64,000 nt of DNA from the NCBI GenBank assembly GCA_964016985.1, contig OZ024828.1, forward strand, positions 78,637,869 to 78,701,868. The letters run 5' to 3'. Below are positions 4,605-63,890 of the stretch, in pieces. Under the pieces are notes generated by a model. It saw nothing but the letters and a program-made list of their open reading frames with translations, was not told the origin of the DNA and searched no databases. The stretch comes from Anodontia alba. Lineage: Eukaryota; Mollusca; Bivalvia; Lucinida; Lucinidae. The translations under genes and the position numbers were made by a program. Positions within the stretch are counted from its first letter, which is position 1, and every line of letters begins with the position of its first letter.

Positions 4605-4843
4605 TTAACCCTTAAACTGCCAATCACAACAATTGTCCTTTGCTTTGTCATCTGCTTGTGATTTTAAAAGTCACTTTTTGCAAACAGTGTGGACCCAGAT
4701 CAGACTGCTCCTCTAGGAGCAGTCTGATCAGGATCCACACTGCTTGTATGCAAAAATAGGTTTGAAAAGTTTGCAAGAATATTCAGCAGATGACATATAC
4801 AGACATTTTCAAATGCAGGTTTTCTTGGCATTTTAAGGGTTAA
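4605..4843. mobile_element. TTAA-flanked MITE family E1
   Basis: Ends are TTAACCCTTAAACTGCCAA and TTGGCATTTTAAGGGTTAA (allowing mismatches). The central perfect hairpin is CAGATCAGACTGCTCCT / AGGAGCAGTCTGATC. A second copy lies at 35311-35572. Confidence 0.75.
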
Positions 4844-4849
4844 GTTTTA

Positions 4850-6007: not shown

Positions 6008-6316
6008 TTTGTTTGTTTGTGTTGAGGTTTTACAGCCCAGTCAACCCAAAGGAGTCATGTCGATCGTGGTCAGTTTACCTAACCACACTTTTACTGGGCA
6101 GGTTAAGTCCTCTAAGCTGTTAACCAGTATTGTGTACATTCTTTCGCCAGAAACTGACAACTGCACTTCTTGAATTTAGCGGAAGTGAGAGAATGACTGT
6201 AGAAAATATATCATGATCAATCTCCACGAAAGAATGTTGCCAACACTGCGGGGGTCGAACCCTCAACTTCCTGATGACCAGTTGGACGTGCATCCAAGTG
6301 AGCCACTGAGGCCAGC
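6008..6316 (-). mobile_element. SINE-A, near full length
   Basis: Reads in reverse from a GTTTGTTTGTGTTGAGG tail to AGCCACTGAGGCCAGC. The B box appears as GGGGTCGAACCC on the plus strand. Mutated relative to the 63577 copy. Confidence 0.85.
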
Positions 6317-10900: not shown

Positions 10901-13900
10901 GTCCGATGCTTTACCACTGCACCACAGTGCTCCACATTTTTTCTCCAGTTCTGCATAAAAACATATGTTGTGGGTACTCATAGGAAGCTTCTCTGCAAGG
11001 TGCTTCTAATGAGTACCCACAACATATGTTTTTATGCAGAAATGAGAAAAATTATCCCAGAATTATCACAAAATACTCCTCCTTAACAATTCCTCTGGAC
11101 TAACAGTGAATGAGTAATGTGTTTTAATATTTAGGGTCAACACTGTATGCTTACCTAAATGATATATAATCATCATCATTAGAAAATGTGAGAACTCTTT
11201 TACTGTCATCTTTCGGCACAGGAAAAAGGTACTTGAGAATATTTTTAACCTGTAAAATGAAAATGAATGTGTCGGCTGAGAACTGCTATAACAAAATAAA
11301 CAATTTTTCAATACACAAGCAGGTAACAAAGTTAAGCCTCATAAATCCAATCTGGCCAATGACTTTGCTCTAAACTTTCACACAACAGAAAGTTTTTTGA
11401 ACTAATGGTCCTGATAATTTTGGTGACAATTTAGATTTTTTTTATACACTAAAACATTTCTCATGGGAACTATTTTTTTGCACCCAAGCATAAAATGTCT
11501 TTGTACCAAAACATATCTAAACACGAGTACTTTTTTATTATTTTACATCAGAACACAGTATTCTCTCTCTGTCTCTCTTTTGCACCAAATCATATCTTAT
11601 GCATGCTCATTTGAATTGCTTCACTGTGGCAATTCCAATACAAACCCACAAGATACGGTTTGATGCAAAAATGATAAAAATCTGCCCTTTATGAGCATAT
11701 ATAGTGAACAAAAAAAAAATAATCCTGAGTAGACTGTGCATAAATGCAGATAAGAAAATGTGATTTGATTTATCCCAGGGCAACCATGGATAATTACTGA
11801 ATACACAGTTGTCAAAAGCTTGGTCAGCTTAACAAAGCTGTTATATTAAAGAGTTTGTTAGGGAGGTGTATTTGAAAATAGTTCTGGGATAATTTTCTCA
11901 ATTTCTCCATAAGCATATGTTGTGGGTACCCATCAGAAGTACCCACAACATATGTTTTTATGGAGAAATAAATAAATTATCCAAAAATTATCACCAAATA
12001 TTCCTCCTTAAAAAGTCTTCTAATCTTTTCATGTAGAGTATACAGAGGATCTTACACGAGTGGTAATTTCATATGAAATTTATGATATGAGCCTTTGGCG
12101 AGTTTCATAAATTTCATATGAAATTACCACGAGTGTAAGATTAAAGATTCTGTTTATCATATGACAATTTAAAGTTGGATTTTATCGCCTATAAAGTTGA
12201 CAGTTGTTCAACAGAAAATGCATGGTTGACATGGACGTTATCATGACGTTACCCGTTCCCACCAAAGAGTTATGTAACGTGTGGTCATACGATTTTTATG
12301 ACATGATGTTATCCGCTAAATAACTGTGACGTCTTATGATAAATTGTATTACATACTGATAGAAATCTGAAAAATATTTACCAGAAGTAGTCTTAATCCT
12401 TACTATCTTGTTCTAAAATTAGAACGTTTATTTTACTACTTGCTGAAGTGGTTAACAACTGTTGGCTTAGTGGTAACAGTGTAGACCCAGATCAGACATC
12501 ACATTCTGTAGTGTCTGATCTGGGTCTACACTGTCTGCTCAGGCCTGTTTGACAGAAAACTGAGGGTAAATATGGTAGACAGAAATCCAGGACTACTTTT
12601 CTCAGGTAACTGTTTTCATAATGATCAGTTGGCTTATTCACAACATAATACTTTCCTGTCATATATTAACCCTTGTCCTGGTGAACCTAGATAAACCCTG
12701 CCTTTGCAAACAGTGTAGATCCAGATCAGTTGGCTTCTTCAGAAGCCAACTGATCTGGATCTGCACTGTTTACCATTAAGTATATGAATTTATGGCAATA
12801 ATCCAGATCAAGTAATCTGATTGGCTGAAAATTAGAAGTGGGCATGGCTTCTTAATTTATTCAGCAGAACATGGGTTAAGAGGAACTAATACACTTTCAG
12901 GGAGGCAGCTATCGAAATATTTTTGCCTCCCTTCTGAACCCTAAAAGGGAAAACATTTGCTCCAAACGGTCTATTCTAAAAGGAAAGAATTTGCTCCCCA
13001 TGGGAGCAAATTCTTTTCTTTTAGAATAGACCCATTTTCAGATGGGGCCTGGTGCACAGGAAAAGCAAAAATGAAATAAAAAAGTTGTCTCCCTTGTAAA
13101 AAATTGTGAACATACTACCAAGTGTATCCTGTTATATAGTAAGGAAAAAAGGTTGCTAACCCGGTTTCCTAATTTGGAGGAAAACTTGTTAAAAATTAGA
13201 TGTGGATAAGCCTCAGACATCTTGCCAACATCTGGGATATCATGTCTCATAATAACATTAGATAGGTTGAAATAAGCTGTTGGTCCATACGGCAGGTGAC
13301 ATACGATCAGACCATCTGTTAATAAAGAAGTGAGAGATAACAAATCTATTAAAGTACTAAAATGTAAGTTGGCTGGTTGGTTTGGAGTTTAATGGCCTAG
13401 TCAACATTATTAAGCTCATGTCAAGTCGGTCAGTTTGCCTATACACTTTGCCTGAAAAGGCTTAGTCTTCTTAGTTAACCAGTACTTGTGCACATTTTTC
13501 AGTCAGAAACTGACAACTGCCTTTCTTGCATCAGCAGAAGGGAGAGAATGACTGTAGAAAATACTTCATGATCAATCTCCACGAAAAAATGTTGCCTGAC
13601 CCAGTGGGGATCAAACCCGCAACCTCCTGATCACCAGTGGAATGCACATCCGACTGAGCCACCCATGCTGGCTATTAAAGTAAGAAAGGTATGAAATAGT
13701 TTTCTTATTTCTCCATGAATATATACATGTATGGTACCTCATTAGAATGGTCTTTGTAACACTATTTTATGTGATGTCACAACAGATCGGCTTGTAGAAA
13801 TAAGCAAATCACTAATATAGCTTAGTTTAACATCCATTTGTGGATGCTTGATAAAACAAGACCATATAACAAGATAAAAACAACTGTTTGTTTGTGTTGA

Positions 13901-16900
13901 GGTTTTACGACCCAGTCAACCCAATGGGGTCATGTCGAGCGTGGTCAGTTTACCTAACCACACGTTTACTGGGCAGGCTTAGTCCTCTAAGCGTTTAACC
14001 AGTATTGTGCACATTCTTTCACCAGAAACTGACAACTGCCCTTCTTGAATCAGCGGAAGGGAGAGAAATTCTCAGAGAATGACCGTAGAAAATATTTCAT
14101 GATCAATCTCCATGAAAGAATGTTGCCGACCTCGGTGGGGGGGGGGGGGGGGGGGGGTGTTGAATCTGCGACCTCCTGGTCTCAAGTCGGACGGCGCATC
14201 CAACTGAGCCACCGAGGCCGGCCCTAAAAACAATTGAGTCTCTTATCACTGGACACATTTGCCCAAGTCTATGGAAGGGAGTTAAGAATTAATACATCTT
14301 TAAGGCAGTTAACTCTGACATGGAAATATTTTATACTTTGCTCTTCAATGGCGGCTACTCTTATGTGTCTTTAAGAAAAGCCGCATTTTCAAAGGATTTA
14401 ACTAAAAAAGCAAATTACTGATGCAGAAGTTGTCTCCCTTTAAAATATGGTAGCAAAATTTCCGGGGCCCAGTTGTTCAAAGCCTCTTTAGCTTAAAGAG
14501 CTCATTAGTGGTCAAAATGTTAACTGTTCTAGTAAGTACAATATCTAATTCACAGGTATTTTTTGCTGAAAAAATATGAGTAGCTTTTGCAAATGCAAAA
14601 GCTACTCACATTTTTTTCAGCAAAAATTTTAGCTTATATGCCATATTTATGATCAGAGTTTTAACTAACGACATCGTTAGTTTTGAACAACTGGGCCCAG
14701 GTGTACCGTTTCACCTTAAAGAAACAACAAATTTGATCAAAAGTACAAGTTAGTATGAAAAAATGTATTTTACCAGGTACACCTCTGTGTTCATGTAACA
14801 AGATGAGATCTGTAACATCATTGGCTCGACAAGCATCTACCAACTGTTTAACCTCGTAGTTACCACGGTTTATTCTCTGGCTGTTTGGGAACATCAGTCT
14901 AATTTCCTGATAATAAATACATGTATACAGTCAAATCTGTCTTAACACTTAGCCAACAACAAATTAACACTTAGCAGATGACAAATTGATGATATTTTCT
15001 CTTATTTTTCTCAGAAAACAGGATACGACAGGAAATGTCAAATCCTATTTTCCGGAAAAAATACGAAAAATATTTGAAAATGACATGTGAAATTTTTGCC
15101 CAGCATGCTAAGTATTAAAGGCCACTTGTATTAAGCAATCACCTCAGTTAAGTGGACATATTTTTAATCACTCTGCAAATGAGGATAAATTTCTTTAAAG
15201 CAATCATGTTTTTGGCTTTCCCTTAGGTGCTTGTTTAACACAGGTTTTACTATATAACAGGGCCCAGTTGTTCAGAACTTAATAAAGTTGTTACCTAACA
15301 TGACGTTGAAATTTTTACCTTGAAATATGACAAATACATCGATATTTTTTGCTGAAAAAAATGTGAGCAGCTTTTGCATTTACTCACATTTTTGCAGCAA
15401 AAATTTCATATATTTGAAAATACCTTAGCTACAACAGTTAACAAGTTTATAAACTATAGCTGGTGACTTTTGTACAGGCTTTGCATTATAGGGTAAACAG
15501 GTTTTAAATTAGATCCATTTTGTATTCAATTTTTCTCAATACAATACAAATAAATGGTATTACTGATACAATATAAACATGTTTTTAAACAGTTTGATGT
15601 TAAAAAGATGCTGTGGGATCAGAAAGGAATGTATATTTTTCCAGATTGTTTCATGTAATAAAATGATAACTAGAAATGTGTGTTTGTAAAACACTATGCT
15701 CCCACCTGTATGCTTGTTCCTACAAAATTGTAAACTTGAAATAATTCACACAAAATTAATCTTTTTTTTTTTCAGAAATCAATCAGGTGTTCTACTCCTC
15801 AGCCTCAATAAATCTGCAAATATCAAATCCCTAGCAGGAATACTTTCTGAGATATCTTGCACAAATGGTAAAGTGTGACGAACGAATAAACAAACAGATG
15901 AACAAAACAAAAGCAATATGCACAGCCCCCTCAACATTTTTCAAATTTGGGCACTAAAAACTGAGTGATTCCAATAACAAACACTTACTCTTTAAAGGTG
16001 TCTATCAGACAACTTGCAGCAATCTCCTATTAATTACCTTTTTATCTAGAAAGAGACTCTGAAATGATGTAGGGGATTGTTTCACTGTACACTATTATGC
16101 AAGCACCTATTAATAAATAAAACTTAAAAACACACATACAAAAATACCTACCTTAGCAAACTGTTTAAGTTTTGAACTTGGGTCCCTAGAAGTAGTGACC
16201 ATTATCTTGGGATCTTCAACTCCTGCCCACTTATATTCATCATCTACATTAGTGGTCAACCCTTCAAAACATTATGAAAACACGCCTATGCAAATATATA
16301 GATTTCACCTCCAAAAACTAAAAAAAAATCAGATAAAAGCCCCGATATTTTTCATATTTCTGCTCAAAACATAGATTGTGGGTACTTGTTAGAACTGCCT
16401 CAGTGAGGCGGTTCTAACGAGTACCCACAATCTATGTTTTCGAGCAAAACTAAGAAAAATAATGTATACCTCTGTAAACTCCAGTTTTACTATATAAAAG
16501 TGGGGTTTAAGGGGGTCAACATTATATAGACATGTTTTCGTGATGACATGTAAAATTGTCCTAGTAAGACTGACACCAAGCTGATTATATTTTTTTCTTT
16601 CTCCATAAAAATGTAAGCTGCAGGTATTGATTCAAACTGCCGCAATGAGGTATTCAAATGAGTACTCACAACATTTATCTTTGTGGAGAAATAAGAAAAA
16701 TGGATTCATTTATTTGTTATTTGTACAGATACTGATCAGATGACGATTTTAACGTATGTCTCTTTCAACATTAAATGAATCAGTGGTATGATCAAGGAGT
16801 GATATAGGAAACTTGCATAGCTCTTGATAAGGCGCTTTTTTCAACCAAAAAGTATCTGTATTTTTCTTATTTCTCGACGAAAACATATGTTGTGGGTACT

Positions 16901-29000: not shown

Positions 29001-32000
29001 ACTTTCAAGACCTAGGGATTTGAAGATCAAGCACTCCAGACTCAGTTGACAAACAGGGCCCAGTTGTTCAAAGCTAACGACGTCGTTAGTTAACGATTCG
29101 TTAAAATTTAAATCGAGTGATACGCAAATATGCTGAAATTTTTTGCTAAAAAATGTGAGTAGCTTTTGCAGTGCAAAAGCTACTCACATTTCTTTAGCAG
29201 AAAATATCGGAATATTGTATATTGAATCTGCTAAAACAGTTAACGAAATGACCCTTAACGAGCTCGTTAAGCTAACGATGCTTTGAACAACTGGGCCCAG
29301 AATTTGTATGAAATGTCAAGCCTTATCTGCACTTTGAAATTTTTAATCAGGAGTTATTATTAGGTGACCACTGAAGAGATGTTAAAGGGAAAGGCCCTAT
29401 AATTGCAACATATGCCCCAAATTCTTCAGCTTTAGAAAACAAGCATCTTGGTGCAAATTTGATCAAAATCAGAAATTAGAAAGATATTGTAGTTTATTGT
29501 CTGTGCCACTGGATGTAGACCATATAGAGGAGACACAGGGAAGTGGTCCATTATTGATCCACAATGCAAATCATTGACCTTGTGCTTGTTGGCTACAACT
29601 AAAACCTGGGACTAGCTGGAGCACTGAATAGAATAGAATAATATTTATTGGAAAATCTACATATACAGTTGTTCTCCATTTACATGCTTTATTTCGGCAT
29701 GCCATACTTATGTAGAATTCTAAACGGTCACCATTGCAGCACCTTATCAAAGGTTATATGATGTACACTAGACATTAATCTTAACAATTTCACTTTTAAA
29801 GTGGGTGGATGCATTGGTTCTGCTAAGCTCAGTTTATAGCATGACAAAAAGTTGTTGTTCTGAACTATTTATTTTATGATGGTTTTGTTTGTTTGTGTTG
29901 AGGTTTTATGGCCCAGTCAACCCAGTGGGGTCATGTCGAGCGCGGTCAGTTTGCCTAACCACACGTTTACTGGGCAGGCTTAGTCCTCTAAGCGGTTAAC
30001 CAGTATTGTGCACATTCTTTCACCAGAAACTGACAACTGCCCTTCTTGAATCAGCGGAAGGGAGAGAATGACCGTAGAAAATATTTCATGATCAATCTCC
30101 ACGAAAGAATGTTGCCGACCTTGGCAGGGGTTGAACATGCGACCTCCTGGTCTCCAGTCGGACGCGCATCCAACTGAGCCACCGAGGCCGGCTTATTTTA
30201 TGATGGATGAAGTGAGCCTAAAAAGCGAATTGAAATTAGCTAATTCTAATATAAGGGTCAACGGGACGAGATCTCATTTAGATATCTCAAAGTCGCATTT
30301 TGCATTATGGAATTTAGCCAAGATTTGCATGTAAAGAACCCTAGACTATTCTGTATTTAAATCAGCTTTCACTTTTATTGTGTGCTAAGCATAGACGATG
30401 GGTGTTGCTATTTTGAATATTTAATTAGATACATATTTAACTTTTGAAAGACGCAAATAAAAGTCTCCTATTAACAGGAATATGCTTCTTATGTGACCTA
30501 GCTGATAGTTTATATGCAAATGAACAAATTTACAGGTATTTAAACACAAAATATTGTTTCAGATATGATTTATATAATTATACCCCGCCACACAATAGTG
30601 GCAGGGTATTATGGTTTCGCATTGGACGTCCCTGTGTCTGTCCATCCGTCTGTCATACCTCCGTCTGTCCCTTTTTCATTTCCTGATGATAACTTGAGTA
30701 AACATCAATGGATTTTCACCAAACTTGGTATGTGCATTGATATTGTGGAGATCTGGTTTGGGATTGCTAATGGGCAAATTTCGTCAAATTTTTACAAAGT
30801 TATCTGCCCACGACACGATGGCAGGGTGTTATAGTTTAACGTTTTTATTATTTTTACCAAGGGAATCCTAAAGATTGCCTCAGATGTGATTTTAATTATC
30901 AATTTTTTCCTAAATTCTGCAAATCTGATGTCGAGGTATGGATATCTCGAAGTAGTCGATCCTCGTTATCTTGACCTCGCTTATCAAAGTGAAAATCTGG
31001 TCCCTGTTTTAATATGGAAATATAATAACAGGTAACAAAATATTGTGGAAAAGAGGAGAAATTGCTCCTGTTATCTGTCTGAGACATGCCCATATTTTCC
31101 TTTCCGGATGATAACTTGAGTAAATAACAAGGGATGTTAACCAAACTTGCTATATGAATTGACATTAAGGAGATCTGGTTTGAGATTGCTAATGGGCAAA
31201 TTTCGTCAAATTTTTACGGAATCTGCCCAAGACACACCCATATTTTTGTTTCCGGACGATAACTCGAGTAAATTACGAGGGATTTTAATCAAATGCTATA
31301 TTTATTGACATTAAGGAGATCTGGTTTGGATTTGCAAATGGGCAAATTTCGTCAAATTTTTACGGAGTTATCTGCCTGAGACACGCCCATATTTTCGTTT
31401 CCAGGCGATAACTTGAGCAAATAACAAGGGATTTTAACCAAACTTGCTATATGCATGGACATTAAGGAGATCATTTCCGGATGATACAATGTAACTTGAG
31501 TAAATAACAAGGCCTTTTAACCAAACTTGCTATATGCATTGATATTATCAAGATCTGGTTTAGGATTGTTATCTGTTCATTGATATTATCAAGATCTGGT
31601 TTAGGATTGTTATCTGTCCCTCTGTCATTTTCTTTCCAGACATTTTCGCAATGATAACTTTAATACATAAACAAATAATTGCTATGGGGTATTATGCTTG
31701 CGGTGCTCTTATTTTTGCATATTTAATTAGGTGATTATGAGGTCACTAACTCATAAAAATGGTGGCTTCCATGACAGCATTTTCTAGAACTTCAAAGCAG
31801 AATTACTTTCTTATTTCTCAACCAGTTTTCATAATTACTTTACGAAACTGTTAACAGGTTCTTCATTTTATTTTTATTTTTTTTTTTTATAGGTTTTTCC
31901 CTTTAAATATACAGTAAAACTGTGCTTTTGAATATCAGAAAAGTGGAGTAGGCTTTTATGGACAGGTGATCACTAATGAAGGCTTCACTGTATTGTGAAT

Positions 32001-35000
32001 ATTTATTTTTAGGAAAGACGACCTTTTCTAGCCTCTGAATGTGAAGACGTGAAGAAAGCAGAGAAATGGAGGAGACAGATTATTGGTGAAGTTTCTAAAA
32101 AAGTGGCACAAATACAGAATGGTGTGTATAATTTCTAATCTATGATCATTTCAAATGGAAAGGTACATTAAGTCTGCAAAATGTACATATGAGCAGCTTA
32201 GACCCAAACCAGATGAAACATTTGGGACTAAAAAGTACCAGATAAGGGGCTTATTCAGTATATAAGGTTTGTTATTTTCTCACCAAAACATCTTTTACTA
32301 TAGTTGCCAAAAATATTTAGACAGGCAGTGTAGACCAAGAGCAAACAGCTAAAACAGTTTGATCTGGGTCTGCACCATTTGCCATTCTATCACAAAATTT
32401 TGAAGAGGAGCAAATAGTCAGTTCAGCTTGATAAAATTTTTGGATAAGGCAAATGTCCTAAAATTTTAAACAGTTTATTCCATACTTTTTTGGCCTTAAT
32501 TTTGCTTTTAATGCAATTATTTCTGAAACCATTTAGTGTAATGGCAAACAGTGTAGACCCTGATCAGACTGCTTCTTCAGAAGCAGTCTGATTTGGGTCT
32601 GCACTATTTGCATATGCTATTTTGTTTGAAAGGTAAGTGTACAAAATTTTAGGACATTTGATTTACCTTAAGAAAGGTAAGAAGTTAGAGTGCCTGAATA
32701 TTTAGGTTTAATATGGTATTCTTTGGAATTGAGTCCTCTGCACAGCCTAATTAACCACACCTTCATGGATAAGGATTAATTTACCCTAGACAAACGCAAA
32801 AATACCTTTAAATTTTACATGTAAAACTTGGGCTCCATAGCACTGTCAGTAGCCCATCTGACTGCAGATCCAAGAGTTTTGAGAATCCCAGCATGGTCGC
32901 ATATGTAACTTTCGTGGAGATAGATTATGGAATACTTCCTATGATCATTATGCTTCTTCTGCTGATTCAAAGAGGGCAGTTGTCAGTTACTAGCAAAAGT
33001 ATGTGCACTAAGTATTGGTTAGCTGGTTAGAGAACTAAGTCTGCCCAGGAAAAGTGTGAGTAGTTTAAGTGACTGGCTCAATGTGATCATAACAGTGTTG
33101 ATTGGGCCATAAAACACCAAACTAAACCAAACCAAAACCAAATGTTTGTCTACCCTTTACCATTAGATTTTTGTAGATGCTTTTGATTTCGGTGATTGTC
33201 AGCCAAATCTGCGGAGAGTCAAATTCAGTCAATTGCCCTAGATGATTTGGCGATATTGAATTTAATAAGACTCTTTGGTAAATCAGTAAAATACATGTAC
33301 AATGCTACAACATAACTCTATCTGATTAAAAAATGTCAGATGCATAATCAAAAGTTACAGATAGGTAATCCATAGCGCCAGATAAGAGATAAAAATAGTT
33401 TTCTTGGTTCTCATAAAATATATGTTGTGGGTACTCATTAGAATTGCCTCAGTGAGGTTATGATTACCCACAACATATTTATCATGGAGAAATAAAAAGA
33501 ATATCAGGGCCCAGTTGTTCAAAGCGTCGTTAGCTTAACAAGCTCGTTAAGGGTCATTTCGTTAACTGTTTTAGCAGATTCAATATACAATATTCTGATA
33601 TTTTTTGCTGAAAAAATGTGAGAAGCTTTGGCACTGCAAAAGCTACTCACATTTTTTCAGCAAAAAATTCCAGCATATTTGCGTATCACTCGATGTAAAT
33701 TTTAACGAATCGTTAACTAACGATGTCGTTAGCTTTGAACAACTGGGCCCAGTACTTTTCATCTGAAAAAAAAAATGCCATATGATCATTCAGCTATGAC
33801 CGTCTCTGAGATTAATGCCAGGGGCAAGTTGTTCAAAACTAACGATGTCGTTAGTTAACGTATCATTAAAACTTTGGGGCCGGTTGTTCAAAGCTAACGA
33901 TGTCGTTAGTTAACGATTCGTTAAAATTTACATCAAGTGATACGCAAATACGCAAATATGCTGAAATTTTTTGTTGAAAAAATGTGAGTAGCTTTTGCAG
34001 TGCAAAAGCTACTCACATTTTCTCAGCAAAAAATATCAGAATATTGTATATTGAATCTGCTAAAACAGTTAACGAAATAACCCTTAACGAGCTCGTTAAG
34101 CTAACGATGCTTTGAACAACTGGGCCCTGATCATTAAATATGGCATATATGCTAATATATCGTGGGGTTAAAGCCAAAACCAATTATCGTCATTTTATAA
34201 AGTTTTGAGAAAACTAGTATTAAAGGTTTTAAAACAATATAAAATTTGCGAAATATGAATTATATTCGTATATTTACATTCGTTTTGTAGGGAATTCAAT
34301 TTGGCAGTGGCAGTTAATGATGAAAATCATAAATACATATCCAATTTATCTTAATTAGCTTTAATTAGTTAGTGGTGTTTTTGGCAAAACTATTTTTTCG
34401 AACAATGCTGCGAGACTTCTGGGCCAAAATCAAACATTTAATGTTACGTGGTTTTGGCAGTAAACATATTTACGCTATAAATACAATGAAGAAATCCAAA
34501 ACATTGTATGTCATGATACAATGTTTTGGCTTGTACGCTCTGAATTACTTCTAAAAGAAAAAAGTCATGCCAAAATATTGTAGGTCCAGATAAAGGGTTC
34601 TGGCTTTCACACAGTCTATTTGTGTGGCCTTGAAATAAAATGCCAGAGTATCATATTTATCAATACTATATTTTTGCAATGCTACTGCATTAAAAGCATG
34701 AGTATAAATAGCTGCCAAAAGCAATTTAGAACAAAACAAGGCCCATTGTAAGTAATTAACTATGTACCAAACTATCAATAGTGTGTTTCATCACACTTCA
34801 GACATTGATTTACTATTTTAATACATTCTCAAATTAGCAACGAAAATCTAATTGTCAGAAACTTGCTGTAATTTCTATGTAATACTATGAGAATTTAAAT
34901 TTCCATAAAATGAGTGTGCAGCACACATGACATAACTGTACATGCATTGCATGATGTTTCAGAAGATTGCTTTGGCCAGTCAGATGCAGTCTTCTGCTAT

Positions 35001-38000
35001 TAAGAATAAAAGAAATTCTGAATTGTTAAAAAGTGTTAAAATAATACCTTATACTGCAGTGATTTTTTACCTGCGCATCCCGAGTCCCATACTCACATTT
35101 TTTTGCTTTGGGACTCATACTTTAAATCTCAGTGAGTCCCCAGACTCACAAAATCATAGCGGAAAGTTCTGTAGTGGATGCAATTATTTTATAGTAGGAC
35201 TCTCTTTATAAAGCCCAGGCAAGTCCTGGGACTCGTAGGTATAAAATTGTAAATAAATCACTGATACTGATTAGATAATGTTCCATGGTGGTTTTGTTGT
35301 ATTAGGAAGATTAACCCTTAAGACGCCAAACACAACAATTGTCGTCTGCTTTGTCTTCTGCCGAATACTTTAAGAGTCATTGTTGCAAAAAGTGTGGGCC
35401 CAGATCAGACTGCTTCTCTAGTAGCAGTCTGATCTAGTAGCAGTCTGATCTGGGTCCAAACTGTTTGCCTATATGCAAAAGGTATGTTTGAAACGTTTGC
35501 AAGAAGATGCAGCAAACGACATAAACAAACGACATTTTCAGATGTAGGTTTTCTTGGCACTTTAAGAGTTAAGAGTTCACATTTTCTAAAGGGCCAAATT
35601 CTCTAGAAAAGAGAGACAGATTCCATGTACTCTTATATTTCAATAATTAAATGTTGCTAATACATAAATCTTCATGATCAAAATCAGTCATCCTATGTTG
35701 TCAACACTTATTTATTGTTAATAAACCTAAAAGGCATATGCTTTCATCATGAATAAATGAATCATACGCAAATGCAAATGCTAGTTTAATTATAAAAAGT
35801 ACAATCTAATGATTTGAAACAAAAATAGAATTTTGTTCCTATAGTTGAGCAGACCACAGCAAAACCTACAGTATGTGCCTACAGTGAAGACTAAGATCAG
35901 AACCCATCCGGTCAGTCTAATCCGCACAGAAAGGCTTTGGCTAATTGGCTGTTGCCCAGCTAAGACTCTCATTAGACTGTCCGATGCCCACATTGACCTG
36001 TGCCCTCCCCGAGCTCACCTGCAATCTTGTAGGTTTTGCTATCCCTCGGCTCAATCATAAATATTTGTAAGTCACCTTGATCAGTCATCCTAAGTAGTCA
36101 TTATTCATTTATCAGAGACTTAAAGCAGAGCTTATTCAGCATCAGTATCACAATCGCTGTTGGTTTCTAAGATATCAGGTTCTGGTAGTCTATCTCTGAC
36201 ACTTTGATGGGAAGGAAGAGATTTATAAAATTCATGATACTCTGATGGAATCACTCCAGACTTACAGAGATTCAGCAAGTCTTTCTTTTTTGCTGCTGAG
36301 ATCGGCAGCTTGGACTTGTATCTCCTTGGCAGTACATCACTGGGAGAAGCATCAGTGGTACGTCCACGTTTGCTACCAGATACCTTGATGCTTTGAAATT
36401 CCTCATCGTAGTCATACTTTATGAAGAATGTGTCCGGACAGTCTTCTTGGAAACGCATCCATCTGATTTTTGTCCAGATAACCCTCTTTCCTTCTGCGGT
36501 TATTTTCACATTTTTTATCTTCTGAGTTTTCATCTGTTTGAAGTCTATGATGTCTCCATGTTTGATTGGGACAACAGTGTAGGGATTCTTTCGTCTGGCC
36601 AACCGAATGACTGTATCCCATTGACTCGGAACGTAAATAGCCGTTTTCTTCTTTGCAAATTCAATCCCTGCATGCATTGAGTCACACTCCATGTGTGTAT
36701 GTCCACTTTCCAAAAAATTGTGGTCAATAAGTTTAATATTGTTACTAGCTGTTACTGCATCAAGAAGGCTTGTTGCTATTATTTGGTTCCTATTCTGGCC
36801 TCCACATGCATCCGAGTAAAAAATAACATGGTCAATATTTAGGGGCAGTGAAAGTAACTGCAATCTTAAACATGTGGCTACTTCACAGGACCCTCTTCCT
36901 CCTTCCGTTTCCGACCAGACATAACATGTTCCAGCTTGATTGCTTAAGTTATAAACAGACAGATTATAGCAGCACAGTTTGCCCATATAATACATTAGAC
37001 TGACTAAAGTGCAAGGTGTGTATAAGACTGATTGTAGATCAAAGGTTGCCACGAAGATATTTGATGTTGTTTTGGAGGTTTGCTTGTCACTTTCCTTTTC
37101 CTGCCTAGCACGAACTTTCCTGGACTGATGTTTCTCGTATTCAGTCTTTATTTCATCTGTCATCAATGTGTCCTCAGAAAGAATCTGGTTGTATCTTGTG
37201 CAGGTATTACACTGATCCTTTTTAGGGACATGGAATGAAAAATTGAATTCTTCATTGAACGTTCTCCTGTATACAGCTTTACTTACAGGTTTGTCTGAGT
37301 TTTGGAGGCATTTTTCCTGATACAACTCGTACATCCTTGAAATATTTAATTCTGGTCCCAGGAACTATCTGTTAGAATCCTTTCTCACATAGTGACCATC
37401 AACTTTAGGAAAGGAGGTAATATGCTCTCGGACCAGATCCAGTGTTTCTCTGTGTGTCTTATTATGTGGTATATGCCTACCTCTGTTTTCAGTGCTGTGA
37501 AATCGTCCTCCAGACTTGTTGGACAAGGCATGATTAATGTATGCTTCTCCAATATTCAGAGTGGCAGAAAAGAACTTTTTGCAGACTACATATTTTTGCC
37601 CTTCGTTCTCTAGTGTGTATGATCGGCTTACCATTCGTCTCTTCTCTTTCACCTCATCATTTTCATCTAAATATGTCTTTGTTTTCTTTTCCACCACACA
37701 GGAGCATACAAAATCTTTTTGTCGCTCATATGAAGCAAGTGACCAGAATGAACTGAAAATCTGCTTTCTGTTCTCTTCTGAAAAATTTGAAGTGCACTTG
37801 AATCTGCAGCTCTTACAAGGTTGTTTCATTGTTTTTTCTTGAATTATTTTGCCAGTGGAGCTCTTGTACTCCTGTCCACTTAGTCTTAATCTTTTCCTTA
37901 TATTCTTCTTCCAGTTTTCAGGTGTGGACTTACGCTTTCGGGCTAGTTTTCTTTTTACTGGTGTGATAAATTTAGCTGATTTTCTTGGTGTTAACTTTTT

Positions 38001-41000
38001 CGGAGAACATATGCTTTCTAAGGAGGATTTGTTACTATAATCTGTAGTAGATGTATTATCATATGGAGCTTTGTCTGGCAAGGTGCCATTTTGAATGTCC
38101 AATGGATCTGCTACATACTGTGGCTCAGCTTCTTCACAGATTCTAGCTGTGCTTACATCTACATTGGCTTCTGACCTTTCAGGAATGATGACTGTTTCAC
38201 AGTTATTGACCTCCTGTGGGGTGGTAACTGGTCCTGTGTCTAGTTCTTCATCTGCCTCTGTAATAGAAATCTGAACGGCTGTAAATACTTCAGTTTCACT
38301 TGAAGTACTCTGGGACCCATTCTGCACTAGTGACTGGCTTTCATCTGGCTGCATTTTGGAATGTGTTTCAGATGATAAAGCTTGACTTAGTGTACTACAC
38401 TTTATGCAGCCATCATAATGTTCAGAGATACCTGGTGACGAAATATACGCTAGACAGACAGGCTCAGATTCATTGTGTTGTCCGAGTGTAGGCTGTACTT
38501 CAATGACTGGCTGTTCTGGTTTGCTGGAATATATACGCACGGTGCGTTGACTCCAGTTGGCGAGGGCTAATGGTAACAAGTCACCAGCTCTGTTGGACCA
38601 GTAACCATTTTGTCTCAAGGTTTCAATTTGTTTGAAGTATGCTTTCAAAAAAGTTAAGTCATCATCGTTTGCGTTTCTATTTAGCAGAAACCCAGTATAT
38701 TCTTCAACGTTTTCTTCTAGATGTTGACAGAGTTGCTGCCGCAGGTGTTGCCTACTGTAATCTTCCCCCAATGTCATCCTAGCAGCTTCAAAAAAGCAAT
38801 TGCCATCAGGAATGACTGTTTTTCGGATAAATCCATTGCTGAATAGAAGCTGATCTAGTCTATTTTCATGTTGGAGTTCAATCATTTTCCTCCTTTCTTC
38901 CTCTTCTTTACTCTCTTCCTTGGCTTGTTGAATCATGGCAAGGTAGCAGAGGTTATCAGTTTGATTATTTAGCCTGTTACATTGCTGCTCAGAAGACTGT
39001 CCTTCAAATAATGTTTTTTTAACTCTGGTTTGTTTCACTTGTTTGACATTTCCATCTACATTTGCTTGGTTTTTCTCGTTTATTATCTTCTTAGCCTAGC
39101 TTTCTTTGTCAGATACTTTCTTTTTCTTTCCAGCTTTATCTACGCCCCTTTCTGTTTTTTTCTCTGATACTCTTGCATGAGACTTGTCACCTTTTCTTTT
39201 CATTGCTAATCCTCTCTTTGGTTTATTTTTCCCATCAGATGAATTTGCACAATATTCTGAATCAGTTGAATTGATTTCTGTATCACTAAGATTATAAGTA
39301 TCATCACTATCTTCAATTTGTGCTAATGCTGTAGCTTCATTTCGTAAGACACTTAAAGGTACATCATCATCAGAGCTTTGTGACTCAGATTGTTTCCGTT
39401 TGATGCCTTTTCTTTTACCTGAATTTGAGCATAATTTCACTCCCTTTATATTATTTTTGCACTGTTTCTTATTTCTTCTTGATTTTTTCGGCTTTTCTTT
39501 GTTTGTGCCTTTTTTGCTGGCTTTTCCTTTATTTTTCAATGAAAATGTGGATGCCCATTTCTTTACTCTCTTCCTCTCAATCGCAGCAAAGTGAATTTTA
39601 TCATTTTTTCTACGGGAGACTTTTGATGAACCTGATATTTTAGATTTCTTAGTTAATGTTTTGCCTTGTATAGTTCTCTTTCTCTTTTGGTTTATATTTA
39701 AATTTTTATGAACTGTTGACTTTTTGGGGCTTGAGTGTGACTTTAAACTTGACGCAGACCTAGATTTGTCATTAAAAAGACTGCCAGAATTTGCACTGTT
39801 CTTAACACTACCATTAGCGGTGTCACTGGGTTTGGCATTTTCAGAACTATCTGCTAAGGTTATTCCCTTCAAAATTGCATCATTCATGAACATTTGATGT
39901 TTAACTTGTTTTGTTTCCTTATCCTCAGTTCCTCCATCTTCTTCTGCATCTTTAAAGTATGTTTGAAACTGATTGTCATTAGGTTCAGCACTAATAACCA
40001 CATTGTTCCAATTGTCATTTAATGATTCATTGCTTGGCTGTGTTTCATTGGAAAGTATTATATTATTGGAAAAGTCATCCAAACTATGGTCGGTACCAAG
40101 GTTTTCACATCCTTGATTAGAGGTTCTTTTAGCAGTCAGATTATCGTTATCCTCTAGATGGGTAGTTACATGTTTGCATTCTGCAACATCTGCCTGTTGA
40201 GAAATTTGACTTTTTGCTTGTACTGGTTCACTACAGTGATTGCCTTTGTTTGGATAATTGCTTTCTTGATCAGTTTGTAACAGTGGGTCCTTCTTGAAAT
40301 CTGTCGGTTCTACTTCGCCAGCATAAGGAGCTGTTTGAAAACAGGCCTCATCATCAGACCAGTCAGACCAAAAGGGATCATCCATCCTACAAGTAAACAG
40401 TTATTGTCTGTTAGGTATATTCCTTTCTTGAGAATCATGCTAGGAAACCTTGGGAGGGGAGTGGTGAAGTGTAGTTTTATCATACTGTACTATTTGTTAA
40501 GTTTGTTTCTCTTAAACATTCTAAAATGAGCCAACTTTTCGTATATGTGCGACCAGCTAAGACTTTGGTCTGGTTACACCATACATAGTTCCACTTGAGC
40601 CTACATTTTCATTCTTTCGATAGCTAGGGATATCTCTATGGCATACGTTGCCATTTATGGTTGTTTTTCACAGCATGGCTGATATCAATCTTCCATACAT
40701 ACAATGCTGATGTTCAGGTAGATGTGGTCATGCGCAAGTAAAAAGTGCTTAGGAGTGCATGGCAGGGTTATGAACCATAAGGTGACTAGAGATGGCTAAA
40801 TAACAGTGTATAAAACGATAAATATCCCAGCAGTTAGCCTAAGGATAGAATAGTATTTTTCACCTGAGCCAATAAATTCTAAACCGATACACAGTGTGTT
40901 TGAACAGACCCATGAATACATGGCCGGAGCAGTGCCCAATTTCAGTTCTTTAAACGCACATGTTCAGCAGTTACATGTACACGGGACCAGTTAAAGAGAC

Positions 41001-44000
41001 GGATACTTGCCTGATGCTTTCTGGCGAAAGAATGTGCACAATACTGGTTAACCGCTTAGAGGACTAAGCCTGCCCAGTAAACGTGTGGTTAGGTAAACTG
41101 ACCGCGCTCGACATGATCCCATTGGGTTGACTGGGCCATAAAACCTCAACAAAAACAAACAAAAACTTGCCTGATACTTTCTCTAGGCTTGTATCACAAG
41201 AGGCTCTGGCGAAACTACACATACGCTCGTATGCCCAGGCCCTACTGAATCTTGTTATTTGCATTTTCAGCAAGTACCCTTTTCACATGGTTTGGCTCAT
41301 TTAAATAAAATTAAATATATTAAATAATTAAAGGACTCACCTTTATTGCAAACAAACTCCTCAAAACTCCATATGAACAAACAACAACAACAAAGGAGCT
41401 TTCTAACTATATAAACTGCAAGATAGCTGAGTACATACTGAGAAAACAAGAATAATTTCTTTCATTAAAATGCCAAAACATATTATTGCCAGATGTGTAA
41501 TAAGTAGTTGAAATGGAAAACTTTAATGTGTTAACCAGACACATGTATCTTTAATAGCAGTGTTTCAGATCTGTTTTCTCTAAAATAATGACTAATGACA
41601 TAAGAGCCAGAACAGCATAATTAGTAGTTAAAGGGACATGGCCGTCAGAAAATAAAACATAAATGACATTTTATGAGGGCCAGATCCATGTACATCTAAT
41701 TACTGTGGTTTGGCTCAAAAGTTTTAGTTTCATCATGATGCATTTCTAGATAGGCAAAATGAGGTAGCTCCAGATACTTGGTTTTGGCATGAAAGAAATT
41801 CTTAAATATAATAAAATTGTCAAAACCAAAACATCGTATTTCGATATACAACATTTTAGCGTGACAAAGGCTGTATCTTATAATAATTCTATCAAATGCC
41901 AAAGTCTAGTAACAGCATTTGTGCTGTTATGGCTGAAGTTGAGAGTAGCTAACTGAGATAATTGGTTTGGGTTTTAATTAATAACTGTAAAACTAATTAA
42001 GATATTGTTTTGAAATTTTCACAGATTAAAGGCAGTAATATGCTTAATCATAAAACGCAAAAAGGTAAAATTCGATAAAAATGTCCGATACAAGGTTTTG
42101 GCGTTAACCCCTCGATATTTGCTGAAAAAATGTGAGTAGCTTTTGCAGCTACTCACATTTTTCAGCAAAAATACCTGTGACTTAGATATTGTACTTACTA
42201 GAACAGTTGACATTTTGACCACTAACAAGTTCTTAGGCTAACAATGCTTTGAACAACTGGGCCCAGTAATTTGTGAAACTATCTTGTTGCATGAAGGATC
42301 CAGTTCAGAGTAATATTATTTATTTTCAGCTGGTTTGGGTGAATTTAAATTGCGAGATATTAACGATGAAATAAACAAACTGTTACGAGAGAAGGGTCAC
42401 TGGGAAGACAGGATTAAAGAACTTGGTGGACCAGATTATAGGGTAACTATCAATGCTTCAGATAAATACATGTAAACTGTGCAGTCTGAGTTTGGTCTGT
42501 GCTAATCTGTTTAATGTAGCTCTAAATAAGAGGAGGTATCAGGTAAATAGTTTTCTTATTTCTCCATGAAAACATATGTTGTGGGTACTCATTAGAAGTG
42601 CTCAGCACTTCTAATGATTTCCCACAACATATGTTTTCATGGAGGAATAAAAAACTATTAATATTTTTTTGGTTGAAAAAAAAAAGGGCCTAATCTGGTG
42701 CTATGTCAAGGTGTAAGAAATCACAGACTGGTCAGATAGGACTACTGTCCTTTCGACATCTCTTTGAAAGATGTTTTATGCTTGGCGTTTTATTTTGACC
42801 ATATCTTCTCAGAAACCATTTTTTCCTTTCTGTTAGAAACCAATTTTCCTTTCTGTATCTGTGTTTTGTTCTCAAATACTTACCCTAAAATTAAACTTAT
42901 GGCTAAAAATTGGTCTGACCTATGCAATTTCAATAGTTAATTTTTTTTTTTTTTTTAATTTTTGTTTAAGAAAATAATTTTTAGTTTTCTTTGCTAAATT
43001 TGAATTATTGATGTTTCACAACAATATTGTGAACATTACAGTAAAATTGAATAAGCAAAACTTGTTGAAAATCTGCCTCCAAGCTACCAACTCTACAGAT
43101 TTCTGCATAATTTGCTTTCATTTTTCTGTGGACATATTTAATTTTTTAAAATCAATGACTACAGTGAAAGTTTTTGTGCATAAGTAGGTATGAAAAATGG
43201 TTTAACACAGATATTCAGAATTGCTGAAATCGTTCCATTCAGATATCCAAGATGGCTGCCATAGCAGCCATCTTGAAATTCTTCAGATGACATCTAATCC
43301 CAAACAATAAGTCAGATTGAGCTGAAACTTGATGGACTACTTTGGAGAGTTATAGAGACTCAGAATTGCTAAAATCGTTCTTTTCCCATATCCAAGATGG
43401 CCACCTTGGACGCCATCTCCTCCCAAACCGTAAGTTGGATTGAACCAGAACTTGATGGGAAGCATCACAGTGACACAGAGATTCAGAATTGCTAAAATCC
43501 TTCCGTTCAGATATCCAAGATGGCTGCTATGGCCATGGTTCTTCAAACGACATCTCATCCTAAACCATAGGTCTGATTGAGTCAAAACGTAATTGGAGGC
43601 ATTGAAGCGACATAGAGATTCAGAATTGCTAAAATTGTCAGCCTTCTAGAAAATCTTCGAACAACATCATTCTCTGGCTATCTTGTAAGTCTTCAGTTGT
43701 TATCTGCTCCCGAACAGTAAGTTGGATGGAGGGGAAACTTGATGGAAGGCATTGGGGCAGCATGGAGATTTAGAATTGCTAAAATGATTCCGTTCTGATA
43801 TCCAAGATGGCCACCATGGCAGCCATCTTGAAAATCTTGAAATCACATCTGCTACCGAAGGGTAAGTCTGATTGAGCTTAAACATGATGGGAGGCATTGG
43901 GGTGATATGGAAATTCAGAATTGCTAAAATCCTTCTGTTCCAATGTCCAAGATGGTGGCCCTCTTGAAATTCTTCAAATCACATCTCCTCCCAACCAGTA

Positions 44001-53000: not shown

Positions 53001-56000
53001 CTGTCCAATACCCTTATTAGCCTCAGAAGAGACTGAACAAAGTCTCTTGTTCAGAGACTAGTGGAGACTGAACAATGGAAGCCAAGAACAGATCGCAGGA
53101 ATTTTCATCAGTCCAAGTCTTACCATTCTCAAATGCTTTTAAGCAACACAGAAAGCCACATCATATGACAATGGTAAGGAAACTGTACACACAGATGAGA
53201 CATACAGATGAAATAAGAAAAATATCAACATATTTTGTTTAAAAAAATCATCTTATCTAGATCTATGTATCTTGTGATACAGATTTTGCACTCTATAACA
53301 CAGAGGACTTGGCAGGACTTCCTGGACTGCGCAGTTACACAGGCTGATCTGAGACTTCTGTATGTCACTCATACAAGGAACGTAAGACACCAAATCATAA
53401 TCATCATCTTCATCTCTTCATCAAATTTTCCAGCCCACATTCTGTATCACAAGAGGCTCTGATGTAATTTATGCTTGTTTTAACCTTTAACATTCTCTGG
53501 GCTAATTCAGCAGACAACACATTAGTGATGTTTTTCATATTTTTTCCCAGAAAATAGGATTTGACATTTCATGCAAATTGTCTCCATTGGAGACAATTTG
53601 CATGGAATGGCAAAACCTGTTTTCTGCAAAAACTAAGAAAAATATTTCAAAATGTCAGCTGCTGAAATTTTACCCAGAGTGCTAAGCATTAAAAGCTGCT
53701 AATGGAGCTTATTTATATAATGAAAATCACCGGAGTTTCACTTTTGTTTCAAACTGATTTTCCCAATCAATTAGTCAGGGCCCAGTTGTTCAAAGCATCG
53801 TTAGCTTAACGAACTTGTTAAGGGTCATTTCATTAACTGTTTTAGCGGATTCAATATACAGTATTCTGATATTTTTTGCTGAAAAAAGGTGAGTAGCTTT
53901 TACACTGCAAAAGCTACTCACATTTTTTCAGCAAAAAATTTTAGCATATTTGCGTATCACTCGATGTAAATTTTAACCAGTCGTTAACTAATGACATTGT
54001 TAGCTTTGAACAACTGGGCCTTGATCTTTAGGGGGTGGTTGGTTCTGGATATGGTGTCGTTTATCTTCTGTCACTGGGGCATCCAACTAATATTGGCTTA
54101 CTGCTGGGAAAGGCCTGCTGTCCTTGTAGCAGGTAAGGGTAGAGGGGGAATGTTTTTATTTCTCCTGTTTCTTCACTTTCATTCCTGTTCCTCTTTCTTT
54201 CCTGTCCCTCTCTTTCATCTCCTCTACTATCTCTTCTATCTATTCTCCTTTTCTCTGGGAGATGACACAAAATGACCCACAAGGGTTGACGGTTCGTTAA
54301 ACCCCAACACAATCAAAAGTCAGATTTTTAATGTAGCTAGGCAACAGAGTCACACAGGGGCACACAAAAACACACAAGTGTTCTGATAATCTGAGTTTCA
54401 CAAAAATAATTTATGCTCTCACTGAGGTTGAGGAATCTGCACACTCATTGTGTAAGAAATATACATGCTTATCATCAAACTAAGTAAAAATACGAATATA
54501 CCATAGAACTTTTAAAGTAATTATTATAATCACTATTTAATTGATAACATTTTTACCTCCCTTGACCTAACTTGGCTACATAGCCTAGTTAGAAACTACA
54601 TACATGTTCTTAGACAATATTTTCCCCTATAATACTTTATTGTGTAGTCCTTAGAAACATTTTCTAGTAAACTAGGGCCAGCTTAATTTCATTTGGAAAC
54701 AGTCTTTTCAGACAACAAAAAGTGAGGTTATATCAAAATTAGCTGTTAGCAACCTTTAAAAGTATTTATTGACAATGGAACTTATATTTTTATCAGCTAT
54801 AGCAGAGAAAGTGAAGGAGTGGAAAGAGAGACAAGAAGCAATAGCAAGAGGAGAAATACCTAAAGAAACAGAGGAAACTGAAGAAGAAGATGTGTATAAA
54901 CCAGAGGTATGAAAAGATCATTCTTTGACAGCATTCTTTGATAGCAAAGGCCCTGATCAGCCTGCACAACTGTGCAGGCTGATCAGGGCTGTTGCTGTCA
55001 AAACGTACAGGCTTATCAGGGCCTTTGCTGTCCACATATTATTGGGATGTTCTGCTTGACTTATAGTACTAGTGGTGGTTTGGGAGGGAAGTGGAGGGTG
55101 GCTATATGACCGGTTTCATTTTTATACCTTTCCACATGATAATTCTGGGATAATATGAAAAAAGGCACTGCCTATGGGCTAGCATAGCATCTAACCAGTT
55201 AATAGCATGTGACACTGACTGTGCAGGTGTCGGGAATCCCACAGAGAATCATATGCAAAACTGCATGAGGGCCCTGCAAATAGTCACCATTGTAATGTTG
55301 CTAGGAGCTTGTCTATTTTTGAATTCCTGTCAAACTAATAGTATTTGAATCATACTGTTGTGTTTTGGTCATGTTTTCAAGCATGAACGACAAAATTATT
55401 GGAAGCAGTAGATGTATGTTACATCAGTGGTAAATTTCATCAAAATTCACGCCAATAATTTGAACATTTATGTATGTAAGTTTCTTAGGTCAATTCCCTA
55501 CCATTGAGCTCACACTTTTCACCAGACCCTTAGGAGCTGGCAAATTGCAAAGATCAATGCATTTAACTGAGTAATGAGTTACTGGTAGTGACAAAGTCTA
55601 TACTAAATATCCATAATTATTACAGGATATTGAAATGGAGGAAGAAGAAGAAGAAGAAAGAGAGACAGACATTCCACATTTTATTGCTCATGTTCCAGTA
55701 CCATCACAAAAAGAGGTAGGTCATTTACAATAAAGGGGTGAGTGGAGTGAAGGGTTGTCTGGATACTGTTCAGGTCATTTACAATAAAGAGGTGAGTGGA
55801 GTGAAGGGTTGTCTGGATACTGTTTAGGTCATTTACAATAAAGAGGTGAGTGGAGTGAAGGATTTTCTGGATACTGTTTAGATCATTTACAATAAAGGGA
55901 TGAGTGGAGTAAATGGTTGTCTGGATACTATTTAGGTCATTTACAATAAAGGGGTGAGTGGAGTGAAGGGTTGTCTGGATACTGTTTAAATCATTTACAA

Positions 56001-62629: not shown

Positions 62630-62873
62630 GGGCCCAGTTGTTCAAAGCGTCGTTAGCTTAACAAGCTCGTTAAGGGTCATTTCGTTAACTGTTTTAGCGG
62701 ATTCAATACATAATATTCTGATATTTTTTGCTGAAAAAATGTGAGTAGCTTTTGCACTGCAAAAGCTACTCACATTTTTTCAGCAAAAAATTTCAGCATA
62801 TTTGCTTATCACTCGATTAAAATTTTAACGAATCGTTAACTAACGACATCGTTAGCTTTGAACAACTGGGCCC
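62630..62873. mobile_element. MITE family C, best preserved copy
   Basis: GGGCCCAGTTGTTCAAAGC and GCTTTGAACAACTGGGCCC; centre AGTAGCTTTTGCACTGCAAA. Confidence 0.95.
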
Positions 62874-63576: not shown

Positions 63577-63890
63577 GCCGGCCTCGGTGGCTCAGTTGGA
63601 TGTGCTGTCCGACTGGAGACCAGGAGGTCGCGGGTTCAACCCCCGCCAAGGTTGGCAACATTCTTTTGTGGAGATTGATTGTGAAATATTTTCTACGGTC
63701 ATTCTCTCCCTTCCGCTGATTCAAGAAGGGCAGTTGTCAGTTTCTGGCGAAAGAATGTGCACAATACTGGTTAACCGCTTAGAGGACTAAGTCTGCCCAG
63801 TAAACGTGTGGTTAGGTAAACTGACCACTCGACAGGACCCATTGGGTTGACTGGGCCGTAAAACCTCAACACAAACAAACAAACAAACAG
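63577..63890 (+). mobile_element. SINE-A reference copy, full length with target duplication
   Basis: Head GCCGGCCTCGGTGGCTCAGT (A box), B box GGGTTCAACCCCC, body GATTCAAGAAGGGCAGTTGT and TTAACCGCTTAGAGGACTAA, end GTTGACTGGGCCGTAAAACC and a CAAA-repeat tail. Direct repeats AGGTTGTG at 63569-63576 and 63891-63898. 314 bp, tRNA-derived. Confidence 0.95.

Follow-up and report, generated by a model that had tools for sequence, protein, structure and literature searches.

The window analysed here is a stretch of 64,000 bp from the lucinid bivalve Anodontia alba (assembly GCA_964016985.1, contig OZ024828.1, positions 78,637,869 to 78,701,868 of the forward strand; coordinates below count from its first base). 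It carries a transposon of 7,954 bp (34161..42114), with its gene on the minus strand and its boundaries given by inverted ends, ATAT flanks and an uninserted paralogue of the target. This interval is very probably an inactivated cut-and-paste DNA transposon, in whose ancestral protein an OTU protease domain was combined with a transposase core of DDE/D type, itself related to the Pfam family DUF7869.

The left terminal inverted repeat lies at the 3′ end of the gene (34161..34181, 21 bp, plus strand) and reads CGTGGGGTTAAAGCCAAAACC from 34161. Its partner (42094..42114, 21 bp, minus strand) is CGAGGGGTTAACGCCAAAACC, finishing at 42114, and the two are identical at 19 of 21 bases. With up to three mismatches allowed, the core end pattern GGGGTTAAMGCCAAAAC occurs at two sites in the 64 kb; these are the ends of the element, both exact, against a chance expectation of 0.21 sites, and two sites were found in none of 100 shuffles. 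The tetranucleotide ATAT is present as a direct repeat on both sides (34157..34160 and 42115..42118, no strand).

The element is inserted within a member of a family of miniature inverted-repeat transposable elements (MITEs) having GGGCCCAGTTGTTCAAA ends, six other copies of which were aligned in the window (14465-14698, 29056-29298, 33507-33750, 33876-34127, 53778-54021 and 62630-62873). Alignment of the flanks with the copy at 14465-14698 (minus strand) defines a left remnant of 34 bases, without its own outer left end (34127..34160), and a right remnant (42115..42264). We fused the flanks (34122-34160 and the right flank up to 42264), removed 0-10 bases, and aligned the product to the same copy. 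The scores for 0, 1, 2, 3, 4, 5, 6, 8 and 10 bases removed were 238, 242, 242, 247, 247, 240, 236, 228 and 223, respectively. At four bases the joined score (247) is near the sum of the separate flanks (47 + 201), with no gap at the junction, and the other five copies score 139-150 in the same alignment. This empty site is a paralogous MITE copy, not an orthologous site. Among lengths 1-10, only 2 and 4 repeat directly at the ends of the element, and 4 scores higher than 2 (247 vs 242); therefore 4 bp is the best-supported length of the target duplication. An earlier note on this DNA had proposed a DNA transposon of about 7.95 kb with inverted ends, ATAT flanks and a 4-bp target, and the end match, the duplication and the empty-site alignment confirm this description. 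The MITE family itself is about 235-250 bp long and has an inner hairpin, AAAATGTGAGTAGCTTTTGC.

The ancestral reading frame covers 1,417 residues (36132..40385, minus strand) and is broken by two TAG stops, at residue 430 (39096..39098, minus strand) and at residue 1007 (37365..37367, minus strand), which split it into open reading frames (ORFs) of 429, 557 and 400 aa. The motifs on which the earlier note relied (PDGNCFF, SEHYDG, FDLQ, SDACGGQNRN and HMECDSMHAGIE) are all in this one minus-strand frame, as it had stated, but the frame is not open. Likewise, its single protein coupling an OTU to a transposase holds for the ancestral protein and not for the window copy, where the OTU and the catalytic core sit on separate ORFs. 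Relatives came from a search that took proteins at least 0.55 times the query length, which favours fused proteins; 31 of the 36 found (all except P0146 and P0153-P0156) were aligned with the window protein (alignment A1). P0124, which matches 50% of the query stretch at 99% identity, has a residue at the first stop and terminates short of the second; at the second stop P0001 has an amino acid; and P0121 (71% identity) is uninterrupted across both. Because these proteins read on at those places, the TAG stops are, on the aligned sequences, later damage to the ancestral frame. A residue is aligned at the second stop in 29 of 31 relatives and at the first in 21 of 31, the latter being weak evidence since that stretch is poorly conserved. 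Introns at the stops were rejected: the relatives are colinear through both places. The window copy is dead, a pseudo-element. Uninterrupted relatives exist, though no full-length and near-identical one was seen among the listed relatives.

The OTU protease domain is encoded at 38406..38849 (minus strand). It scores 39.8 bits with the PF02338 profile (curated cut-off 23.3), and 23 of the 27 members of alignment A3 (26 of the 36 relatives plus the window protein, picked after A1 had shown P0148-P0152 to be without an OTU) match the profile at E <= 0.1, each on its own sequence. We take the Cys and His-x-Asp columns (C530, H656, D658 in the window) to be the OTU catalytic positions. Among the 27 rows, which were selected by the same alignment so that the full count for Cys is partly by choice, Cys is present in 27, His in 26 (Tyr in P0121) and the Asp after His in 24; the window protein has all three. 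The best fold matches of the domain model are cellular deubiquitinases. Cellular OTUD1, OTUD3, OTUD5/DUBA and yeast Otu2 are 18-23% identical to the window OTU (four rows); unlike them, the domain is here fused to a transposase. The protease proposed in the earlier note is thus upheld: judged by profile, residues and model, this is a cysteine protease of the OTUD/Otu2 type, with ubiquitin cleavage as its predicted activity.

The structure predicted for the second domain is an integrase/transposase fold, and its acidic residues are conserved. Model, fold match and conservation place an RNase H-like catalytic core at 36576..37058 (minus strand; D1116, D1192 and E1233/D1235), which agrees with the transposase-like domain that the earlier note had seen after the OTU. 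Preceding it in the protein, a WKK...CxxCxxxC segment with invariant columns (37794..37940, minus strand) is a putative zinc- or DNA-binding part. For conservation of the acids we used alignment A2, with 79 rows (67 of 120 listed relatives out of 155 found, 11 of the 36 proteins above, and the window). D1116 is conserved in 78 rows, D1192 in 79, E1233 in 78 and D1235 in 79. The glutamate of HAGIE, E1242, which the earlier note had taken as the Glu of a DDE triad, is E in only 72 of the 79 rows and in 26 of the 31 A1 rows having a residue there. We set it aside, whereas D1235 is invariant and E1233 varies in one row. As third catalytic acid, D1235 or E1233 is the likelier choice.

With the DUF7869 profile (PF25273) the window ORF scores 21.9, below the curated cut-off of 26, while its relative P0037 reaches 26.7 and 74 of the 79 aligned A2 members match at E <= 0.1. 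DUF7869 is listed without an assigned function; the related domain here occurs within a transposon and has a predicted fold like that of an integrase. No family was found by an NCBIfam scan of the three ORFs, nor any match by a BFVD fold search at E <= 0.001 or by a solved-structure profile search at E <= 10. RAG, hAT, P and MULE transposases are not named in 50 VIA-align rows, which excludes nothing.

These observations also bear on a reading in which a host OTU gene, or captured host cargo, lies between chance inverted repeats and the DUF7869-related part is no transposase. The names of the relatives would allow it (uncharacterized, hypothetical, unnamed, OTU domain-containing, DUF7869 domain-containing and one SLA1-like), and DUF7869 carries no stated function. 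However, the frame lies between ends that interrupt a MITE, the model of the second domain is that of an integrase/transposase with conserved acids, and relatives lacking the OTU keep the transposase part. Because of the interrupted MITE and the integrase-like model, we set this reading aside as highly improbable.

The pairing of the two domains is conserved among relatives of the transposon. Of the 32 A1 rows, 26 contain both the Cys of the OTU and the first Asp of the transposase; in the remainder, P0124 ends before the transposase and P0148-P0152 show no OTU but retain the transposase part. Among named sources, Pinctada, Littorina and Batillaria have paired proteins, and in the rows from moths (Cydia, Amyelois) the transposase is present but the OTU is not. 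The label 'mollusc-type' is used here on account of such named relatives among the listed proteins. Across 26 rows, OTU and transposase distances are correlated (r 0.74), and none of 5000 permutations gave a value as high; the test assumes that related sequences are exchangeable. Mapped onto a tree built from 31 transposase cores, the OTU label requires two changes, of which the starred branches force only one, and 30% of bootstrap trees need one.

A further protein search, in which only the 7,983 candidates with the greatest word overlap were scored, gave 20 proteins, 11 of them already among the relatives. In a scan of viral contigs, 33 stretches matched a pattern and none was a relative. 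Genome contigs gave 48 pattern matches and one relative, a fragment of 26% identity at the end of a contig from a bacterial bin. This Gemmataceae-binned contig (L001:1-500) opens with the DUF7869-related fragment, which covers query residues 1-127 and is followed by other sequence, and is probably a chimera carrying eukaryote DNA. Among the other proteins, P0165 has reverse-transcriptase (PF00078) and OTU (PF02338) annotations, so that an OTU is also found in a retroelement-like protein. Phage gp5 trimerisation (PF22178) is annotated in two relatives, P0153 (1,097 aa), where it was confirmed, and P0154 (1,067 aa); each is perhaps a repeat-driven or chimeric gene model.

A transposon with an OTU is as such already known, from Ginger1 and Helentrons. 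According to the available part of the Ginger1 report, the transposase of these elements carries a C-terminal OTU or Ulp1, their termini are TGTNR and their targets CCGG/CCGT (PMC2836005). The same part indicates shared features: cut-and-paste transposition, a 4-bp target duplication and an integrase-type core, to which some Ginger1 families add an OTU. In contrast to the Gypsy-like integrase and C-terminal OTU of Ginger1, the core here is related to DUF7869 and is preceded by the OTU; the window ends are CGTGG/CGAGG (CGWGGGG) and the target is ATAT. Membership of Ginger1 is rejected on ends, target and domain order. The earlier note could name no described superfamily with such a pairing; Ginger1 does provide a precedent for OTU plus transposase (PMC2836005, in part), although transposase, ends and target differ. 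Helentrons, in the accessible sections of another report, encode OTU-like cysteine proteases (PMC4067079). They are rolling-circle elements with Rep/helicase and the OTU in an additional ORF, unlike the inverted ends, target duplication and DDE/D-type core seen here. No Pfam match to Rep/helicase was found in the three window ORFs at E <= 1; with inverted ends present, Helitron/Helentron membership is rejected.

The piggyBac and Kolobok families, whose target is TTAA, are rejected on the ATAT target. Sola transposons have a 4-bp target duplication, with which the element agrees, and a DDD-type transposase; to our knowledge, none carries an OTU. There is close to an even chance that Repbase already lists the group to which this element belongs, most likely Sola on account of its 4-bp duplication, and that only the OTU has gone unremarked. 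Sola1 and Sola2 have been reported in bivalves, with Sola1 among the longest elements (PMC10294476, available excerpt). As a precedent, a soybean CACTA paper was discounted: in its accessible text 'ovarian tumor otubain' occurs once, in a gene table of a bacterial artificial chromosome (PMC2613891). A DUF7869-related transposase with an N-terminal OTU was not found in the open-licence PubMed Central literature, most subscription papers, Repbase and Dfam being outside this scope; in the same literature no paper has DUF7869 by name, nor the motif words QNRN/QNKN.

Words from the ends recur inside the element. On both strands together, exact GCCAAAAC occurs at 11 sites in the whole window; six are in the element, none of them more than 700 bp from an end, and two of the six fall inside the inverted repeats. 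With one mismatch allowed, 18 of the 25 sites in the element are within 700 bp of an end, and the 56,046 bp of the window that surround the element contain 59. Counted in this way, the repeats mark a left (34173..34860) and a right (41415..42102) subterminal zone. Subterminal repeats often serve as binding sites for transposases.

From these parts, the following course of events may be proposed. The ancestral protein, of about 1,400 residues, would have comprised a long charged N-terminal region, the OTU, a linker, the Cys-rich segment and the RNase H-like core. Its transposase would bind the inverted ends and the subterminal GCCAAAAC repeats, cut with a 4-bp stagger and join the element to an A+T-rich target. 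Less certainly, the OTU might act in cis as a deubiquitinase that keeps ubiquitin from driving the removal of the transposase or of its complex; alternatively, it might edit ubiquitin signals at the DNA break. A local role of this kind could account for its retention alongside the transposase. Since relatives keep the pairing, the OTU may help the element to move or survive.

Polyprotein processing, one of the functions offered in the earlier note, finds little support. Here the OTU would cleave the protein into OTU and transposase parts, in the manner of papain-like viral proteases, and a linker of low model confidence, with a basic TPRK...KRK stretch, does join the two domains in the window protein. 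But linker length ranges from 33 to 151 residues, a GG pair is found in one of 26 rows, and the closest folds are those of cellular deubiquitinases, all of which makes such cleavage unlikely. Somewhat less doubtful, though still improbable, is a role mainly in trans, in which the OTU would counter host defence or the signalling of DNA damage instead of shielding the transposase itself. Ubiquitin controls repair, and the Ginger1 authors, in the available part of their report, propose that the ubiquitin pathway participates in transposition and that OTU/Ulp1 has a role in repair activation (PMC2836005). The fusion to a transposase, however, suggests local action, even though nothing here separates cis from trans.

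More broadly, and tentatively, with the balance somewhat against it, DUF7869-related proteins could be the transposases of animal DNA transposons that form a superfamily not yet described, in a mollusc-centred branch of which a built-in deubiquitinase would have been co-selected with the transposase, across long divergence, as part of transposition. Its traits would be a 4-bp target duplication, the CGWGGGG ends seen here, and a third acid in an ME[CV]DSxH motif.

Read as a transposase, the second domain points to a function for DUF7869, to which Pfam assigns none. The pairing with an OTU lets the part played by ubiquitin in DNA transposition be tested within one protein. It also means that mollusc genes annotated as 'OTU domain-containing protein' can be transposase genes. 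OG1538, a bivalve-only orthogroup of OTU-like cysteine proteases with 82 genes (about 5.5 per bivalve species), is among the gene expansions given in the available part of another study (PMC8382680), and might be transposon-derived.

Several minor features lie in and around the element. Rfam gave no matches at the gathering threshold in 33000-43000. A putative intron of the 5′ untranslated region (40387..41340, minus strand; donor AAAG|GTGAGT, acceptor TTTACTTGTAG) is proposed from splice consensus. The 3′ part of the element contains a nested MITE with TTAA at both ends (35311..35572), of which a related copy at 4605-4844 has one 16-bp repeat unit fewer. Nested in the putative intron is a piece resembling a short interspersed nuclear element (SINE; 41018..41164, plus strand); it has a AACAAAAACAAAC tail and is flanked on both sides by 18-bp direct repeats that differ at one base (41005-41022 / 41165-41182). 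Further SINE-like copies are at 2576-2722, 6008-6153, 13885-14028, 29883-30029 and 63741-63883, and ARAGORN places a tRNA-Ser (gga) on the plus strand at 63579-63656.

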